Below are positions 1,279 through 7,638 of a stretch of DNA of 7,871 nt, piece by piece (position 1 is the stretch's first letter; every line of letters starts with the position of its first letter). Location of the stretch: positions 1 through 7,871 of the forward strand of contig DATCKS010000330.1 in NCBI GenBank assembly GCA_036562265.1, given 5' to 3'. A model generated the notes under the pieces. It did not search any database, was not told the DNA's origin, and was given only the letters and a program-made list of their open reading frames with translations. Both the position numbers and the translations under genes were made by a program. The stretch is from DASVDK01 sp036562265 [NCBI: Thermodesulfobacteriota bacterium]. Its GTDB lineage: Bacteria; DASVDK01.

Positions 1279-2475
1279 CTACGGCGGCCGGACGGCCGAG
1301 GCCCAACTCGGTTCGAACCGAGTTCGCACGGGCCCAGAGGCCCGGTACGCCCCGGTGTAGACGGCCGCCGGTTCCCGCACCTGCGACTCGCCCCAGGGGC
1401 CGAACACGCGCTCGGCCTCGTACCCGTTGTGCGCCCGACAGCGCAGTTCGATGTTCGCCACGGTCGCCGCGCCGCCTTCGGCGTACGGCCGCACGTGGTG
1501 GAACTCGAGAAAGCCCCGCTCGGCGCATCGCCGCCCCGTCCGGCTCACGAACGCGCACCGTCCCCCGTCGCGCGCCCAGACCGCTCGCTTGACCGCCGCT
1601 GGCACGTGGCGCGAGCCGGGTCTCGGGGGCGTGCCGGCTCGGGGCCGCTCGGTCGCGCCCACCTTCTGCTTGAGGAGCGTGTCGACGAGGACGGTGAGGG
1701 CGCGGTCGAGCACCTGGGCGACGTCGCCGTCGGGGATCTGGTGGCGCAGGAGGTCCTGCGCCTGTCGCAGCTTGGCGTAGGTCTCGGCGCTTGCGGTGAA
1801 CTGGACCTTGTAGCGGTCGGGCGCCAGGGGCGCGACGACCGGCGGCCGTGCGGGCGGCACCTGCGCCGGGGCGGGTGCCGGCGCCGGCCGTTGCTCCACC
1901 ACTGCCGGCGCCGGTAGTGAGGCCGGCGGAGCCACGCTCGCCGACGGCTCCGGGACCGGGACAGACGGGCTCGCCAGCGCCGATTGCACGGAAGGTGGCG
2001 GCGTGGCTGGTACCGCCCGCGGCGCCGGCAGCCGGCGTACCGAGGCGGGCACGGGCGGCTGGGGACGAAGCGCCGCCACCAGCGCCTCGACCTCCCGCCG
2101 GCTCTTGTGTCGCACCTGGTCCAGCAGGTCCCGATGAGTCTCCCCTGTCAGGTGCGGCGCGAGGAGCGTCACCGTCGTGAGCGTGATCGAGCCGTCGGCA
2201 AGGCGCTCGAGGAGGATCGGGAACCGCCGCGCCGCGCGCGCCGCCTCGATCCGGCCGTAGGCGGCGTGCTCGGAGAGGTGGAGGACCTGCGTGCAGTAGA
2301 CGAAGAGGGACGAGCAGCCCTCGGCGAGGTAGAGGCGCCGGGCGTCGAGTTCGGCGAGGTGCGCGATGAGCGCGACGGTCGCCTCGCGTTCGCGGGCGGC
2401 GAGCCGCGGCACGGTGGCGAGGAGTTCCGAGTCGGAGAGTTGCGCGGGGTGAGCAAGCATGGGCATGGCGGCCAT
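1279..2475 (-). CDS. HNH endonuclease family protein with DUF222/13E12-like N-terminal region
   Basis: This 398-residue protein has three parts. Residues about 10-135 are helical and Leu/Ala/Arg-rich (LSDSELLATV, then LSEHAAYGRIEAARAARRFP), resembling the DUF222 region of 13E12-type proteins. Residues about 138-220 are a Pro/Ala/Val-rich low-complexity linker. Residues about 220-360 contain a helical segment (YKVQFTASAETYAKLRQAQD) and the HNH nuclease: VWARDGGRC, then FHHVRPYAEGG (H326, H327), N341, and RCRAHN (H349, N350). C307, C317 and C346 may bind metal. HNH domains cut or nick DNA with a single metal ion. ATG 2475 is the furthest possible start: TGA and TAG lie in frame just upstream, and AGAAGG precedes it. 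Residues 361-398 extend beyond the domain, and 384-391 are encoded by a 20-bp palindrome that recurs upstream of the gene. The neighbours on both sides are functionally unrelated, which suggests insertion. The target and biological role are unknown; 13E12-type genes in mycobacteria are repetitive and suspected to be mobile. Confidence 0.85.
   Translation of the reverse strand: MAAMPMLAHPAQLSDSELLATVPRLAAREREATVALIAHLAELDARRLYLAEGCSSLFVYCTQVLHLSEHAAYGRIEAARAARRFPILLERLADGSITLTTVTLLAPHLTGETHRDLLDQVRHKSRREVEALVAALRPQPPVPASVRRLPAPRAVPATPPPSVQSALASPSVPVPEPSASVAPPASLPAPAVVEQRPAPAPAPAQVPPARPPVVAPLAPDRYKVQFTASAETYAKLRQAQDLLRHQIPDGDVAQVLDRALTVLVDTLLKQKVGATERPRAGTPPRPGSRHVPAAVKRAVWARDGGRCAFVSRTGRRCAERGFLEFHHVRPYAEGGAATVANIELRCRAHNGYEAERVFGPWGESQVREPAAVYTGAYRASGPVRTRFEPSWASAVRPP
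1305..1324. repeat. 20-bp perfect palindrome, copy 1
   Basis: AACTCGGTTCGAACCGAGTT is exactly its own reverse complement, with no spacer. It lies inside the last 15 codons of the HNH frame and encodes residues 384-391 (RTRFEPSW) on the minus strand. An identical copy is at 2715-2734. The flanking bases differ between copies. Confidence 0.9.
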
Positions 2476-2662
2476 GCTTCCCTTCTATCACGGGGGTTCC
2501 GGAGGGCTTCCGAGGCGCCGTCGAGTGAGACACATGGGCGCGACCGGCGTCGAAGGCTCCCGATCCGAGAAACGCCGCCTGGCGGGCGGTCCCTGTCTCT
2601 ACAGAGCCATCGCCGAGATGACCCCGTCCCGCTCGGCGAGGCCCCCGGCGAAGCTGTCAAGC

Positions 2663-2698
2663 GTGTTTTCGAAGGCGCGGGGTGTTTTCGACGGCACG
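2663..2698. repeat. Two-copy tandem direct repeat, 19-bp period
   Basis: GTGTTTTCGAAGGCGCG (2663-2679) and GTGTTTTCGACGGCACG (2682-2698) match at 15 of 17 positions. The TTTT runs stand out in this GC-rich setting. The repeat lies 16 nt to the left of palindrome copy 2 (2715-2734), so it is inside the palindrome-bounded block. It could be a protein-binding site or an element end. Confidence 0.6.
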
Positions 2699-2712
2699 CG
2701 CGGCCGCTCGCG

Positions 2713-2736
2713 CGAACTCGGTTCGAACCGAGTTCG
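2713..2736. repeat. Perfect palindrome, copy 2 (20-bp core at 2715-2734)
   Basis: The core AACTCGGTTCGAACCGAGTT is identical to the copy at 1305-1324. Here the symmetry extends by CG on each side to 24 bp. It is non-coding, 239 bp upstream of the HNH start and about 135 bp upstream of the leuS -35 element. There is no T-run, so it is unlikely to be an intrinsic terminator. Confidence 0.9.
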
Positions 2737-2938: not shown

Positions 2939-5491
2939 ATGACCGACTCCACCCGGGTCTCGCCCGAGCCCGCGACCGAGAGCCCGGCCGCTCGTCCGCG
3001 CGCCGATCGGTACGACCCCAAGGCGGTCGAGCCGAAGTGGCAGGCGCGCTGGGCCCAGGGCCGGGTGTTCGAGGTCGACGAGGACCCGGCGAAGCCCAAG
3101 TACTACTGCCTCGAGATGTTCCCGTACCCGTCGGGTCGGATCCACATGGGGCATGTCCGCGTCTACTCCATCGGCGACGTGATCGCCCGCTACAAGCGGA
3201 TGCGGGGGTTCAACGTCCTGCACCCGATGGGGTGGGACGCCTTCGGCATGCCGGCCGAGAACGCGGCCATCAAGAACAAGACCCACCCGGCCGAGTGGAC
3301 GTACAAGAACATCGGCTACATGAAGTCGCAGCTCCAGCGGATGGGGCTCTCGTACGACTGGCGCCGCGAGGTGACGACCTGCGCGCCGGAGTACTACCGC
3401 TGGGAGCAGTGGCTCTTCACGCGGATGTTCCAGAAGGGACTCGCGTACAAGCGCCTCGGCACGGTCAACTGGTGCCCGGTCGACGAGACGGTCCTCGCCA
3501 ACGAGCAGGTGGAGGGCGGCCGGTGCTGGCGCTGCGGGGCGGAGGTGACCACGCGCGAGCTGTCGCAGTGGTTCTTCCGGATCACGGCCTACGCCGAGGA
3601 GCTGCTCGAGGGGCTCGACCGGCTCACGGGCTGGCCGGAGCGGGTCGTGACCATGCAGCGCAACTGGATCGGCAAGTCGGTCGGCGCGGAGATCGAGTTC
3701 GACGTCGAGGGGTCCTCGGAGCCGATCCGCGTCTTCACGACGCGTCCCGACACGCTCGGGGGGGCCACGTTCATGAGCCTCGCGCCCGAGCACCCGCGCG
3801 TGGCCGAGCTGGCGAAGCAGGGGGGACGCGAGGCGGAGGTGGCCGCCTTCGTGGAGAAGGTCCGCCGGCAGGAGAGGATCCGCCGGACGGCCGAGGATCA
3901 GGAGAAGGAAGGGGTCTTCACCGGCGCCTACTGCGTGAACCCGCTGAACGGCCGCCGGATGCCGATCTGGGTGGCGAACTTCGTCCTCATGGACTACGGC
4001 ACCGGCGCGGTCATGGCGGTGCCGACCGGCGACCAGCGCGACTTCGAGTTCGCGAGGAAGTACGGGCTGCCGATGGTCCTCTCGGTGACGCCGAAGGGCG
4101 AGCCGCCACTCGACCCGGCGAAGATGACCGAGGCCTACACGGCGCCCGGCGTCCTGGTCAACTCGGGGCCGTTCGACGGCATGGACAGCGAGGCGGCGAA
4201 GGACGCCATCGCGGAGTGGCTCGCCGCGCGCGGCAAGGGGCGCAAGACGGTGAGCTACCGGCTGCGAGACTGGGGCATCAGCCGCCAGCGCTACTGGGGC
4301 GCGCCGGTCCCGATCATCTACTGCCCGGACCACGGCGCCGTGCCGGTGCCGGACGACCAGCTCCCGGTCGTGCTCCCCGAGGACGTGGAGTTCACGGGGA
4401 CGGGGGCCTCGCCGCTCGCGAAGCTCGAGCGCTTCGTCAACGCGCCGTGCCCGACGTGCGGCAAGATGGGCCGCCGCGAGACCGACACGATGGACACGTT
4501 CGTCGAGTCGTCGTGGTACTTCGCGCGGTACACGTCGCCGGGCTACGACCGGGGGATGTTCGACCGGCTCAAGGCGAAGTACTGGCTGCCGGTCGACCAG
4601 TACATCGGCGGCGTCGAGCACGCGATCCTCCACCTCCTCTACGCGCGCTTCTACACGAAGGTCATGCGCGACTTCGGCCTCGTGGACTTCGACGAGCCGT
4701 TCACGAACCTCCTCTCCCAGGGGATGGTCATCAAGGACGGCGCCAAGATGTCGAAGTCGCACGGCAACGTGGTCGACCCCGACGCGCTGATCGACCAGTA
4801 CGGGGCCGACACGGCGCGGCTCTTCAGCCTCTTCGCCGCCCCGCCCGAGAAGGACCTCGAGTGGAGCGACCAGGGGGTCCAGGGCTGCTTCCGCTTCATC
4901 TCGCGCGTCTGGCGGCTCGTGGTGGAGGAGCCCGACCTCTGGCGCGACGGCCCGGAGGTGGGCGTTTCGGTCGATCGCGAGGCGCTCCCGCGCGAGCTGG
5001 CCGCCCTGCGGCGCAAGACGCACGCGACGATCAAGAAGGTCACCGACGACCTCGACGGGTTCCGCTTCAACACGGCCATCGCCGCCATCATGGAGCTCGT
5101 GAACGCGATCTACCTCGCCCGCGAGGCGCACGGGACGGCCGGCGCGGCCGGCAGTGTGCTGCGCGAGGCGATCGTCGCGGTGGTGCGCCTGCTCGCGCCG
5201 TTCGTGCCCCACGTCGCGGACGAACTCTGGGAGCGGATGGGCGGCCGCGAGACGCTCGTCTTCCAGAACTGGCCCACCTTCGACCCCGCCCTGGTGCAGG
5301 CCGACGAGGTGCTCATCGTCGTGCAGGTGAACGGGAAGGTGAGGAGCCGCATCACGCTCCCCGCCGACAGCCCCGAGGACGACGTGCGAGCGGCGGCGCT
5401 GGCCGACGCCCGGGTGCGGGAGTTCACCGGCGGCAAGCCGCCGCGCAAGGTGGTGGTCGTGCCGAACAAGCTCGTGAGCATCGTGGTGTGA
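2939..5491 (+). CDS. leuS: Leucyl-tRNA synthetase
   Basis: This cytoplasmic class Ia synthetase attaches leucine to tRNA-Leu using ATP. At 850 residues it has the usual bacterial length. Visible landmarks: [11 protein letters not shown] with the HIGH-type motif HMGH at 69-72; zinc-domain cysteines (C179, C196, C199); the CP1 editing domain with the Thr-rich [12 protein letters not shown] (267-278) and the leucine-sensing aspartates in GDQRD (D365, D368); [14 protein letters not shown] (443-456); a second Cys pair (C504, C507); KMSKS at 603-607; and the C-terminal tRNA-binding region ending NKLVSIVV. The first 23 residues are a polar extension before the conserved [12 protein letters not shown]. 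One oddity: the editing site normally reads His-Asp-x-Arg-Asp, but residue 364 is Gly where His is usual; both aspartates remain. Its stop codon overlaps the start of lptE, so the two are translationally coupled and head an operon with holA. Confidence 0.98.
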
Positions 5492-6015
5492 GGGGAGGCC
5501 GGCTTCGCGGTCTCGTCGCCCAGGCCGCGGCGCTCGCCGTGGTCCTGGCCGGCTGCGGCTACACGTTCCAGGGGGCGCAGAAGGCGCTGCCGGGAGGCGC
5601 GACGACGATCGCGATCCCGATGCTCGCCAACCCCACGCTCGAGCCGGAGCTGGCGGTGATCCTCACGGCCGCCATCCGCGACCAGTTCGCGCGCACGCAG
5701 GCGATCCGCCTGGTCCGGACGGAGGCGGCGGAGGCGATCCTCCGCGGCCGGGTCGTCGGTTTCTCGGTCGACACGATCGCCTTCGACTCGCAGGGGCTCG
5801 CCCTCGAGTACCGGGCCACGCTGACGCTGAATCTCACCCTCACCGACCCCGACGGCGGCCGGATCTTCTGGGCCGACCCGGCCGTGCGGGGCACCGACAC
5901 CTACCGGGCGGCCAGCGACCCGCTCGTCACCGAGGCGAACCGGCGAGAGGCGGTGCGACGGATCGCGGCCGACATCGGGCGATCGGTCAGGGACCGGGTG
6001 CTCGCCGGCTTCTGA
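5488..6015 (+). CDS. lptE: LPS-assembly lipoprotein LptE
   Basis: LptE is an outer-membrane lipoprotein that plugs and helps assemble the LptD translocon, which inserts lipopolysaccharide in the outer leaflet. This 175-residue protein has a basic N-terminus (RGGRLRG), a hydrophobic stretch (9-21) and a lipobox LAGC with the lipidated cysteine at position 23, followed by GYTFQG, a typical LptE beginning. The mature part shows the expected [16 protein letters not shown] strand-helix, a central beta region ([26 protein letters not shown]) and a C-terminal helix ([21 protein letters not shown]). The start is GTG 5488, overlapping the leuS stop as GTGA; no ATG lies before the signal peptide and no strong ribosome binding site is seen, so translation probably depends on leuS termination. 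The leuS-lptE-holA order is conserved in many Gram-negative bacteria and supports the call. Confidence 0.92.
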
Positions 6016-6099
6016 CCGGCGTCACGCCGCGACCTGGGCCGCGTCGTCCGGTCGCGAGACCCGCGCGGTGACGAGGGCGGGGGACGAGCGGGAAGGCGG

Positions 6100-7137
6100 A
6101 TGGGCGGAGCGAGCATCGTCGAGTTCGAGCGGGCCCTGGGCAAAGGGCAGGTGCCGGCCGTGGTGCTGTTCGTCGGCGAGGAGGCGCGCCTCGTCGACCG
6201 CGGGCTCGCCTGCCTGAGGGAGGCCGTCGTCCCGGCCGCCCAGCGCGACTTCAACGAGGATCGCCTGCGCGCGGACGACCTCGACGCGCCCCGCCTGGAG
6301 GACAGCCTCCGCACGCTCCCCGTGCTCGGCGGGCGGCGCCTCGTGATCGTGCGCGACGCCCACCGGCTGGAGGACCGGGGGGCGAAGTACGAGGCGATGC
6401 AGGCCGCCCTCGTCGCCTACGTCGAGGCGCCGGTCGAGACGACGGTGCTCGCGCTCGCCGCCGAGAAGGTCGACCGTCGGCTCAGGGTCTGGAAGGCGAT
6501 CGAGAAGGCGGGGGTCGTCGTCGACTGCAGCCCGCCCGACGAGGCGACGCTTCCGGCCCGCCTCGAGGCCGAGGCGGCGGCCGCGGGCGTCCGGTTCGAA
6601 CCGGGCGCGGCGCGGTTCCTGGTGGAACTGGCCGGACCCGATCTGGGGGTCCTCGAGGGGGAGGTGGCCAAGCTCGCGGCCTTCGTGGGGGAGGGGGGCC
6701 GCATCAGCGCCGAGACCGTGCGCGAGATGCTCGAGAGCCGCCGGGCGGGCGAGACCTCGGTCTTCGAGTGGGTGGACGCGGTGGCCGCCCGGCGCGCCGA
6801 CGACGCGCTCGCCGGTCTCGGGCGGCTCCTCGACGCCGGGGAGGAGCCGCTGCGCCTCCTCGGGCTCCTCGCGCGACAGGTGCGCCTCGTCCTCGCGACC
6901 CGATCGATGCTCGCACGGGGTGCGAGCACGCAGGAGATCGCCGAGCGGGTCGTGCCGCGGGCGCGCTTCCTCGCCCGCAAGCTGGTCGACCAGGCGCGGC
7001 TCCACCGCGATCGCGACCTCTTCGAGATGCACGACGCGCTCGTGGAGGCCGACCTGGCCCTCAAGTCGAGCCCCGCCTCTCAGCGCTTCGTGATGGAGCG
7101 GCTGGTCCTGGCCCTCTGCGGGCTAGAGGCGCGCTGA
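6100..7137 (+). CDS. holA: DNA polymerase III delta subunit
   Basis: HolA is the clamp-loader subunit that binds and opens the beta sliding clamp during chromosome replication. The 345 residues match the usual length of about 340. Family features: the N-terminal PAVVLFVGEEARLVDRGL (19-36), the strand LPVLGGRRLVIVRDAHRLE (73-91), the WKAIEKAGVVVDC region (131-143), DLGVLEGEVAKLAAFVGEGGRIS (181-203, the domain II helix region), TSVFEWVDAVAARRADDAL (219-237), and the C-terminal collar region EEPLRLLGLLARQVRLVL (248-265). Like other delta subunits it has no Walker ATP-binding motif. ATG 6100 is preceded by GGAAGGCGG, with the ribosome binding site rather close, and there is no other start upstream in frame before the lptE stop. 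It lies 84 nt after lptE with no promoter or terminator visible between them, so it is probably cotranscribed. It converges with rpsT. Confidence 0.93.
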   Translation: MGGASIVEFERALGKGQVPAVVLFVGEEARLVDRGLACLREAVVPAAQRDFNEDRLRADDLDAPRLEDSLRTLPVLGGRRLVIVRDAHRLEDRGAKYEAMQAALVAYVEAPVETTVLALAAEKVDRRLRVWKAIEKAGVVVDCSPPDEATLPARLEAEAAAAGVRFEPGAARFLVELAGPDLGVLEGEVAKLAAFVGEGGRISAETVREMLESRRAGETSVFEWVDAVAARRADDALAGLGRLLDAGEEPLRLLGLLARQVRLVLATRSMLARGASTQEIAERVVPRARFLARKLVDQARLHRDRDLFEMHDALVEADLALKSSPASQRFVMERLVLALCGLEAR

Positions 7138-7225
7138 CGGCGCGGCGCGACCGCGCCACGCGTCGAGGGGCAGGGGGGGCGGCTCCTGTCGTCGGAAGCC
7201 GCCCACGGACCGGCATCGCGGCGCT

Positions 7226-7258
7226 CGGGCCTGCGGCCCGGGGCCGCTCTCGCGGCCC
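7226..7258. terminator. Two adjacent GC-rich hairpins between convergent holA and rpsT
   Basis: CGGGCC-TGC-GGCCCG (7226-7240) is followed directly by GGGCCGC-TCTC-GCGGCCC (7241-7258). Both stems are perfect. They lie 9 nt after the rpsT stop (minus strand) and 88 nt after holA, so they could slow or end transcription from both sides. Neither side has a T-run, so this would be a non-canonical or Rho-assisted terminator at best. Confidence 0.4.
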
Positions 7259-7267
7259 GCGCCTACG

Positions 7268-7540
7268 CTACTTGCCCGCGGTGGCCTTGTGGGCGGCCTT
7301 CATGAGCCGGGAGATCTTCCGGGAGGCCGTTCGCCTGTGCAGGACCCCCTTCGACGCGGCCTTGTCGAGCACGGGCACGGCCGAGGCGAGCGCGGCGGCG
7401 ACCGCGGCGGGGTCGTTCGAGCCGATCGCGGCCCGCACCTTCTTGACCTCGGTCTTCACGCGCGACTTGACGCTGACGTTGCGGGCCCGGCGGCGCAGGC
7501 TCTGGCGGTGCCGCTTGAGAGCCGACTTGTGGTTGGCCAC
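7268..7540 (-). CDS. rpsT: 30S ribosomal protein S20
   Basis: S20 binds 16S rRNA early in assembly of the small ribosomal subunit. The 90-residue product begins (M/V)[20 protein letters not shown], the classic S20 N-terminus, continues with [14 protein letters not shown], and ends with [22 protein letters not shown]. It is highly basic and helical, of usual length (family about 85-90). The reading frame is open further upstream to an ATG at 7618, but that would add 26 residues foreign to S20; GTG 7540 is chosen because GGGAGGAG lies 5 nt before it and the family starts there. A non-AUG start is notable because E. coli rpsT also has one (UUG), linked there to translational autoregulation. It is transcribed alone and convergently with holA. 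Confidence 0.97.
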
Positions 7541-7545
7541 GAATG

Positions 7546-7553
7546 CTCCTCCC
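7546..7553 (-). promoter_or_regulatory. Ribosome binding site of rpsT
   Basis: GGGAGGAG on the minus strand lies 5 nt before GTG 7540. It is the longest such match in the window and fixes the start of S20 at GTG rather than at the upstream in-frame ATG 7618. Confidence 0.8.
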
Positions 7554-7608
7554 GATGGGATGCGGGGCCGACCGGGAAGGCCGCCCACGCCGAAGACGAA
7601 ACCGCAGA

Positions 7609-7638
7609 CTACTAGCAACCGCGCCGGGGGGGTGTCAA
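7609..7638 (-). promoter_or_regulatory. rpsT: rpsT promoter, consensus -35 with extended -10
   Basis: On the minus strand, a perfect TTGACA (7638-7633) is followed after 18 nt by TAGTAG (7614-7609), directly preceded by TGC (extended -10). The predicted start is near 7602, giving a leader of about 60 nt. The layout is the same as the candidate promoter of the ferredoxin-NrfD gene. If transcription starts here, the ATG at 7618 lies outside the mRNA, which further supports GTG 7540. Confidence 0.55.

Follow-up and report, generated by a model that had tools for sequence, protein, structure and literature searches.

A palindrome-bordered HNH nuclease gene

The window, the whole 7,871-nucleotide stretch of DNA analyzed here, encodes an HNH nuclease bordered by two copies of a perfect palindrome. 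We interpret this unit, with a probability of roughly 0.6, as a mobile or repetitive element, compact at ~1.4 kb, that combines an HNH gene with cognate palindromic ends, REPtron-like but with an unrelated nuclease. The structure itself has good support: an HNH unit bordered by palindromes that also occur dispersed. The mechanism we consider most likely is that the HNH enzyme would act on the palindrome and so drive its spread. The features of the window are as follows.

1305–2736, minus strand: whole element, from downstream to upstream palindrome, ~1.43 kb
1279–2475, minus strand: HNH nuclease gene, 398 aa, intact (PF01844, 21.5 bits versus a cut-off of 21.4)
1414–1614, minus strand: HNH nuclease domain, residues about 288–354, from Pfam and a 23-member alignment
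1630–1842, minus strand: central segment, residues 212–282, conserved in the 23-member alignment
1305–1324, no strand: 3' (downstream) palindrome, perfect over 20 bp, located within the HNH ORF near its 3' end
2713–2736, no strand: upstream (5') palindrome, 24 bp, perfect, with the core AACTCGGTTCGAACCGAGTT at 2715–2734
2655–2660, minus strand: TTGACA motif, unchanged across the 14 5' ends that were aligned
2486–2490, minus strand: TGATA, at the position of a conserved TGnTA block directly before the HNH start codon

As originally predicted, AACTCGGTTCGAACCGAGTT occurs exactly at 1305–1324 and 2715–2734, the upstream copy being the one that extends to 24 bp. Neither a third exact copy nor a further match with up to three mismatches was found elsewhere in the window. 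The pair had been considered unlikely by chance, and this is borne out: none of 200 shuffles produced a match to the 20-mer, and a scan of genome_contigs (257 Gb) recovered it at five places, whereas chance alone would give ~0.2 if all four bases were equally frequent. The HNH gene had also been placed between the palindromes. Its ORF does span the interval, but the copy at 1305–1324 lies within the 3' end of the ORF, 23 bp ahead of the stop codon, and codes for RTRFEPS (residues 384–390).

The upstream palindrome is at −259 from the HNH start, and most relatives whose 5' end is complete have it at −220 to −266; in L052, L074, L107, L119, L123, and L125 it is at −63 to −130. The TGnTA block is a candidate promoter element. 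No RNA family at gathering score and no tRNA was identified in the window. Following the element, positions 2939–7618 hold leuS, a lipoprotein-like ORF, holA, and an rpsT-like gene (the lipoprotein and rpsT assignments were made by eye); the part of the lipoprotein-like ORF that was tested has no Pfam match.

The HNH protein

A Pfam search of the window protein returned HNH alone at E ≤ 0.001, and PF01844 matches all 23 aligned members at E ≤ 1 (best 2.8e-6). Cys307, Cys317, Cys346, His326, His327, and Asn341 are invariant in the alignment, and His349 is nearly invariant (absent in L113). By these motif residues, the window protein and its relatives are assigned to the HNH nuclease superfamily. 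The predicted model, of low confidence, folds the HNH domain as helix, two strands, helix. Values of dN/dS of 0.14–0.26 across 11 pairs of relatives indicate that the gene is under purifying selection and that its function is kept. Broken copies also occur, with frame changes in L037, L052, and L116 and losses in L044 and L113, as do fragments.

The central segment is a candidate DNA-binding or dimerization domain, perhaps of the ribbon-helix-helix type. Pfam RHH_5 weakly matches 3 of the 23 members (best E 0.0073). The model of this segment has two helices and no strand, and a PDB fold search gave no match at E ≤ 0.001; with low-confidence models and no PDB match, the ribbon-helix-helix reading has no structural support.

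The DUF222/13E12 label given to the protein in the original prediction is not supported. The Pfam assignment is HNH, and DUF222 (PF02720) has no match in the window protein up to E = 1. It does weakly match four of the 23 relatives (best E 9e-4), with L120 scoring 19.1 bits versus a curated cut-off of 24.4. The NCBIfam IscB model weakly matches the HNH part alone of the window protein (18 bits versus a cut-off of 175), and neither a Y1 transposase match nor a RuvC part was found in it.

Distribution across genomes

Four of the five places that hold the 20-mer are in a single MAG, MENB01 (Armatimonadetes RBG_19FT_COMBO_69_19, here G001), and the fifth is in Flaviflexus. The Flaviflexus occurrence is probably due to chance because that genome has no match to the window HNH protein. 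There, the 20-mer forms part of a 28-bp perfect palindrome (L003 6472–6499) soon after a tRNA-Ala gene (by eye). G001 encodes a single HNH gene and carries the looser pattern ACTCGGTNCGNACCGAGT at 14 places with up to two mismatches (13 exact, one cut by Ns); at L005 of this genome, a palindrome lies between leuS and an HNH gene 58% identical to that of the window.

From the phylum to which G001 belongs, we sampled 43 genomes, all draft assemblies. ACTCGGTNCGNACCGAGT was matched in 10 of them and AACTNGNYYCGRRNCNAGTT in 13, and HNH homologs (E ≤ 0.001) were detected in 11, several with many copies and one, G016, with a fragment only. The palindrome family (ACTCGGTNCGNACCGAGT plus AACTNGNYYCGRRNCNAGTT) occurs in 11/11 HNH genomes versus 3/32 others (G003, G005, and G006); the Fisher p value of 6e-8 applies to genomes that are related rather than independent and counts G016 by its HNH fragment. 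The pattern matches in G018 are imperfect, and an 18-bp perfect palindrome precedes one of its HNH genes. Contigs C4, C39, and C43 of G006, a genome with no detected HNH homolog, contain four AACTCGGCCCGGGCCGAGTT-like palindromes, two of them perfect. Copy numbers are low, with 1–29 20-mers in each genome that has the family at all. HNH genes or fragments number up to nine in one genome, by our grouping. Viral contigs yielded no 20-mer and no confirmed HNH relative, phages yielded no HNH relative, and among plasmids there were two weak partial Deinococcus matches to the HNH protein.

The association extends to individual genes. Thirty HNH genes, from 37 gene clusters and including that of the window, have at least 300 bp of upstream sequence and could be tested. 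A palindrome is present within 300 bp upstream in 25 of them, versus 70 of 1500 segments of 300 bp drawn at random from these loci. The exceptions are L118, L120, L121, L122, and L124, and in L121 a palindrome is found farther upstream. With the co-occurrence among genomes, these counts uphold the proposal of a dispersed palindrome family associated with the HNH gene. The pairing anticipated between gene and palindrome is nevertheless incomplete, both in these five genes and in G003, G005, and G006, where palindromes occur with no detected gene.

Window LeuS is ~50–56% identical to long LeuS matches in 39 of the 43 phylum genomes, and the window HNH protein is up to about 68–70% identical to relatives in these genomes. 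The closer similarity of the HNH protein suggests that the window host lies outside the phylum of G001 and that the element was transferred. An HNH gene also lies within 2 kb of leuS in G001 and G018, and those leuS are ~53% identical to that of the window; the proximity may reflect either coincidence or an insertion shared from long ago. Two divergent leuS genes occur side by side in G018 (C4:44757–49653), G001 (C174:13507–18383), G021 (C11), and G022 (C297).

Short, dispersed, perfect palindromes, some of them paired 45–50 bp apart, resemble REPs, and genes for Y1 transposases are present in G012, G016, and G017. The palindromes could thus be REPs of the usual kind, mobilized by a Y1 (RAYT) transposase, with the HNH gene as a passenger, but we consider this very improbable. 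Y1_Tnp was detected in 3 of 14 genomes, all three among the 11 HNH genomes, and in none of the other eight HNH genomes (MAGs may be incomplete). None of the eight Y1 loci holds the palindrome. The tag GTAG lies within 10 bp of 1 of 63 palindromes and CGTC within 10 bp of 6 of 63, where ~9 would be expected by chance for each; directly abutting the palindrome, GTAG occurs in 0/63 and CGTC in 3/63.

Ends of the element

The arrangement palindrome–HNH–palindrome, with perfect palindromes, was also identified in G008 (C101) and G017 (C66 and C176), with palindrome starts 1353–1392 bp apart. Eight further copies have a recognizable palindrome at each end, some with mismatches. Both ends are complete palindromes in the window, L035, L036, and L037. 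Where a 3' palindrome was found it is usually within the ORF, with ORF-end cases in L035, L036, L057, L060, L062, and L112. In L035 and L036 the ORF continues through the 3' palindrome into sequence with no clear sharing between copies.

In many pairs of copies at unrelated loci, homology stops at a palindrome or close to it. We mapped the end of homology relative to the outer palindrome edge in 132 ordered pairs of 12 copies. At the 5' side, homology ends within −30 to +10 bp in 52 pairs, falls short of this range in 64, and extends past +10 in 16. At the 3' side, the corresponding counts are 29, 86, and 17. Among L108, L110, L112, L114, and L116, the overshoot reaches at most 93 bp past the 5' palindrome and at most 73 bp past the 3' palindrome. 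Eleven of the 14 largest listed 5' overshoots are among L108, L110, L112, and L116; of the 14 listed 3' overshoots, six are among L108, L110, and L114, and two represent the shared locus L037/L114. About 55 bp of sequence is shared after the palindrome in L108, L109, L110, and L114, and extra degenerate palindromes lie ahead of L116 and L057. Given the overshooting homology, the element does not end precisely at the palindromes in every case, and we rejected exact palindromic ends for every copy.

At L004 (533–570) and L095 (1249–1284, equivalent to L115 2986–3021), the 20-bp palindrome grows to 38 and 36 bp, respectively, and remains perfect. The outer arms are specific to each locus, as though adjacent DNA had been copied in mirror image. 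Symmetric extension by at least 5 bp was found in 4 of 46 perfect palindromes, versus 0.045 expected.

The similar distance of the upstream palindrome from the start codon in many copies is also what would be expected of operators or transcript hairpins. Such sites could belong to an immobile HNH family that is spread by other means, with the solo palindromes as further sites of the same regulator, and purifying selection on the HNH gene would be compatible with this. However, the second palindrome at the 3' end overlaps coding sequence, homology between copies stops at or close to the palindromes in the many pairs noted above, and there are truncated copies as well as copies at unrelated loci with empty sites. 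On balance, a regulatory role of this kind appears improbable.

Mobility, empty sites, and solo palindromes

Two elements vary in presence at orthologous sites, a trait shared with insertion sequences and MITEs. The element on contig C176 of G017 is flanked by a gene and tRNA-Asp; five relatives (G018, G015, G020, G021, and G022) lack it at the orthologous site, and G016 has other sequence there. The element on contig C125 of G019 is absent from the orthologous site in four (G017, G020, G021, and G022). In the empty regions of both, nothing was found closer than four mismatches to the degenerate palindrome. Since the relatives show no palindrome at either locus (nine comparisons), gene and palindrome seem to arrive together. 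No target-site duplication was seen by eye in the flanks, and the empty sites are too diverged for the exact insertion point to be placed. Identity between full-length copies at different loci does not exceed about 85%, so there has been no very recent jump of the whole element. Near-identical pieces are all short: L038 and L041 are 97% identical over 106 bp, and L043 and L045 are 99% identical over 78 bp.

The original prediction offered two options, the ends of a mobile element or a dispersed family associated with the protein, and these hold together. The first is sustained insofar as the palindromes lie at or near the ends of a repeated unit with two empty sites, but not as a claim of exact ends. 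An excess of palindromes close to HNH genes, also anticipated, is present: 15 of 47 strict 18-mer palindromes are within 400 bp of a detected HNH gene, versus 0.17 expected. The other 32, however, are farther away, several of them at contig ends where the gene was possibly cut off.

Five solo or gene-remnant loci (L038, L039, L040, L051, and L063) hold 48–106 bp of the 5' end of the element beside the palindrome. The presence of this end makes them look like remnants rather than targets. Other solo loci have a shared second motif (GACCCAnnTGGGTC-like, by eye) or palindrome pairs 45–50 bp apart. One such pair (L001 1880–1944, CCGG and TTCGAA cores, 45 bp apart) lies ~245 bp upstream of a lexA-like gene (by eye). 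We dropped a LexA operator reading of these palindromes because a better box, which we take to be LexA-like, lies nearer the lexA-like gene (by eye).

These observations bear on intergenic homing, in which the palindrome would be the HNH target, solo palindromes would be homing sites, and break repair from a palindrome–HNH–palindrome donor would insert the gene in either orientation. The HNH fold is common among homing nucleases, and free-standing HNH homing endonucleases, too, are solitary genes at different sites. Palindromes away from HNH genes are frequent, and a gene with a whole palindrome on each side is compatible with repair that uses the flanking palindromes as template. Unlike in homing endonucleases, however, both putative recognition palindromes remain intact beside the gene and are not interrupted by the insertion. 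The relatives at the two empty-site loci have no palindrome, and the five solo or remnant loci that hold the 5' end are remnant-like, not target-like. We therefore regard homing as unlikely, although less so than the other alternatives.

Units within 500 bp of a tRNA number 7 of 69. Within 500 bp of the units, tRNA density is 138 per Mb (9 tRNAs in 65 kb), versus 17 per Mb at greater distances in the same loci (5 tRNAs in 298 kb). Distances of 51–122 bp from tRNA genes were noted for L035 (4537–4612), L036 (3397–3485), L037 (6148–6307), L039, L142, and L150. The elements L037 and L114, which differ in palindrome type, lie in the same orientation in one gene/tRNA-Asp interval shared by G017 and G019, which may reflect repeated insertion or replacement. 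L044 and L060 are in opposite orientation at one shared locus.

Palindrome types and HNH lineages

Seven perfect palindrome types were identified, including AACTGGGTCCGGACCCAGTT, AACTAGGTCCGGACCTAGTT, AACTCGTTCCGGAACGAGTT, and AACTCGGTTCGAACCGAGTT. Variants change on both arms together: 56 of 75 listed 20-mers (76 by the table count) are perfect, versus 29% expected if the arms varied independently. Ten of 12 bracketed copies have the same arm type at both ends, some with one or two mismatches; L108 and L116 have unlike or mixed ends.

Palindrome type follows the HNH lineage. In an HNH protein tree with 26 members, of which 23 have a palindrome label, it requires seven changes versus a shuffled mean of 11.8, and none of 1000 shuffles reached seven. 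When types were shuffled within genomes, 2 of 1000 did. The host label requires 12 changes for nine hosts, and the HNH genes do not follow their hosts. The AACTGGG type forms a supported clade that spans G017 and G019, both of which also carry AACTCGG-type copies; L119 (G018) falls outside the clade. Within it, L110 and L117 come from two MAGs yet share 97% identity across 3.9 kb, which may be a binning error. Physical linkage alone could generate the co-variation of palindrome and protein, so co-variation is no proof of recognition.

Relationship to known systems

The element most resembles REPtrons, in which a RAYT/TnpA-REP gene is bordered by REP palindromes, REPs are dispersed, and lineages of enzyme and palindrome co-vary, as described in two reports (PMC8266576, PMC3733652). 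Shared with REPtrons so described are a nuclease gene bordered by palindromes, the dispersed solo palindromes, and the joint variation of enzyme and palindrome lineages. In contrast, the enzyme is an HNH protein and not a Y1 HUH transposase (0/23 members match Y1_Tnp), the palindromes are spacer-free with no GTAG or CGTC tag, the 3' palindrome overlaps the gene, and copy numbers are low. The element may thus work like a REPtron yet is no member of that group, because the defining Y1 enzyme and GTAG tag are absent.

Other known systems share fewer features. The HNH genes here are multicopy like the DUF222/HNH genes and REP13E12 regions, are similar to them in size, and include four of 23 members with weak DUF222 similarity. 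Unlike them, the window protein has no DUF222 match, and no relatives at E ≤ 1e-20 were found in 198 genomes of the Flaviflexus phylum (first candidates per genome scored). REP13E12 regions of mycobacteria are described in one report as undergoing frequent gene conversion (PMC13061034). IS200/IS605 and IscB elements are compact and, as one account has it, have palindromes or hairpins at their ends (PMC8266576); in the present protein, neither a match to Y1 transposases nor a RuvC part was found. Among the titles and abstracts retrieved from the open PMC library, no description of an HNH gene bordered by dispersed palindromes was found.

Under our preferred reading of a mobile, palindrome-ended HNH element, the HNH protein, probably as a dimer, would recognize its cognate palindrome, in either duplex or hairpin form, and would nick or cut there. 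Repair or strand transfer at the palindrome could then copy the unit, or the palindromic 5' end alone, into new intergenic sites. We propose more tentatively, at slightly less than even odds, that such units constitute an element class of their own, with a solitary HNH nuclease as sole enzyme, perfect palindromic ends, and scattered solo palindromes. This class would be an independent counterpart of REPtrons, with matched nuclease–palindrome lineages shared by distant bacteria.

Significance

Many bacteria carry dispersed palindromes. According to one report (PMC3733652), REPs of the GTAG type are linked to RAYT transposases, and CGTC repeats apparently have no dedicated enzyme. If our interpretation is correct, a second, unrelated nuclease has its own dispersed palindromes, and such a life style arose more than once. 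The seven perfect palindrome types would represent natural nuclease–palindrome pairs of differing specificity that are directly testable. Overall, the element points to a little-known kind of mobile DNA that apparently spreads both an HNH gene and a short motif in uncultivated bacteria.
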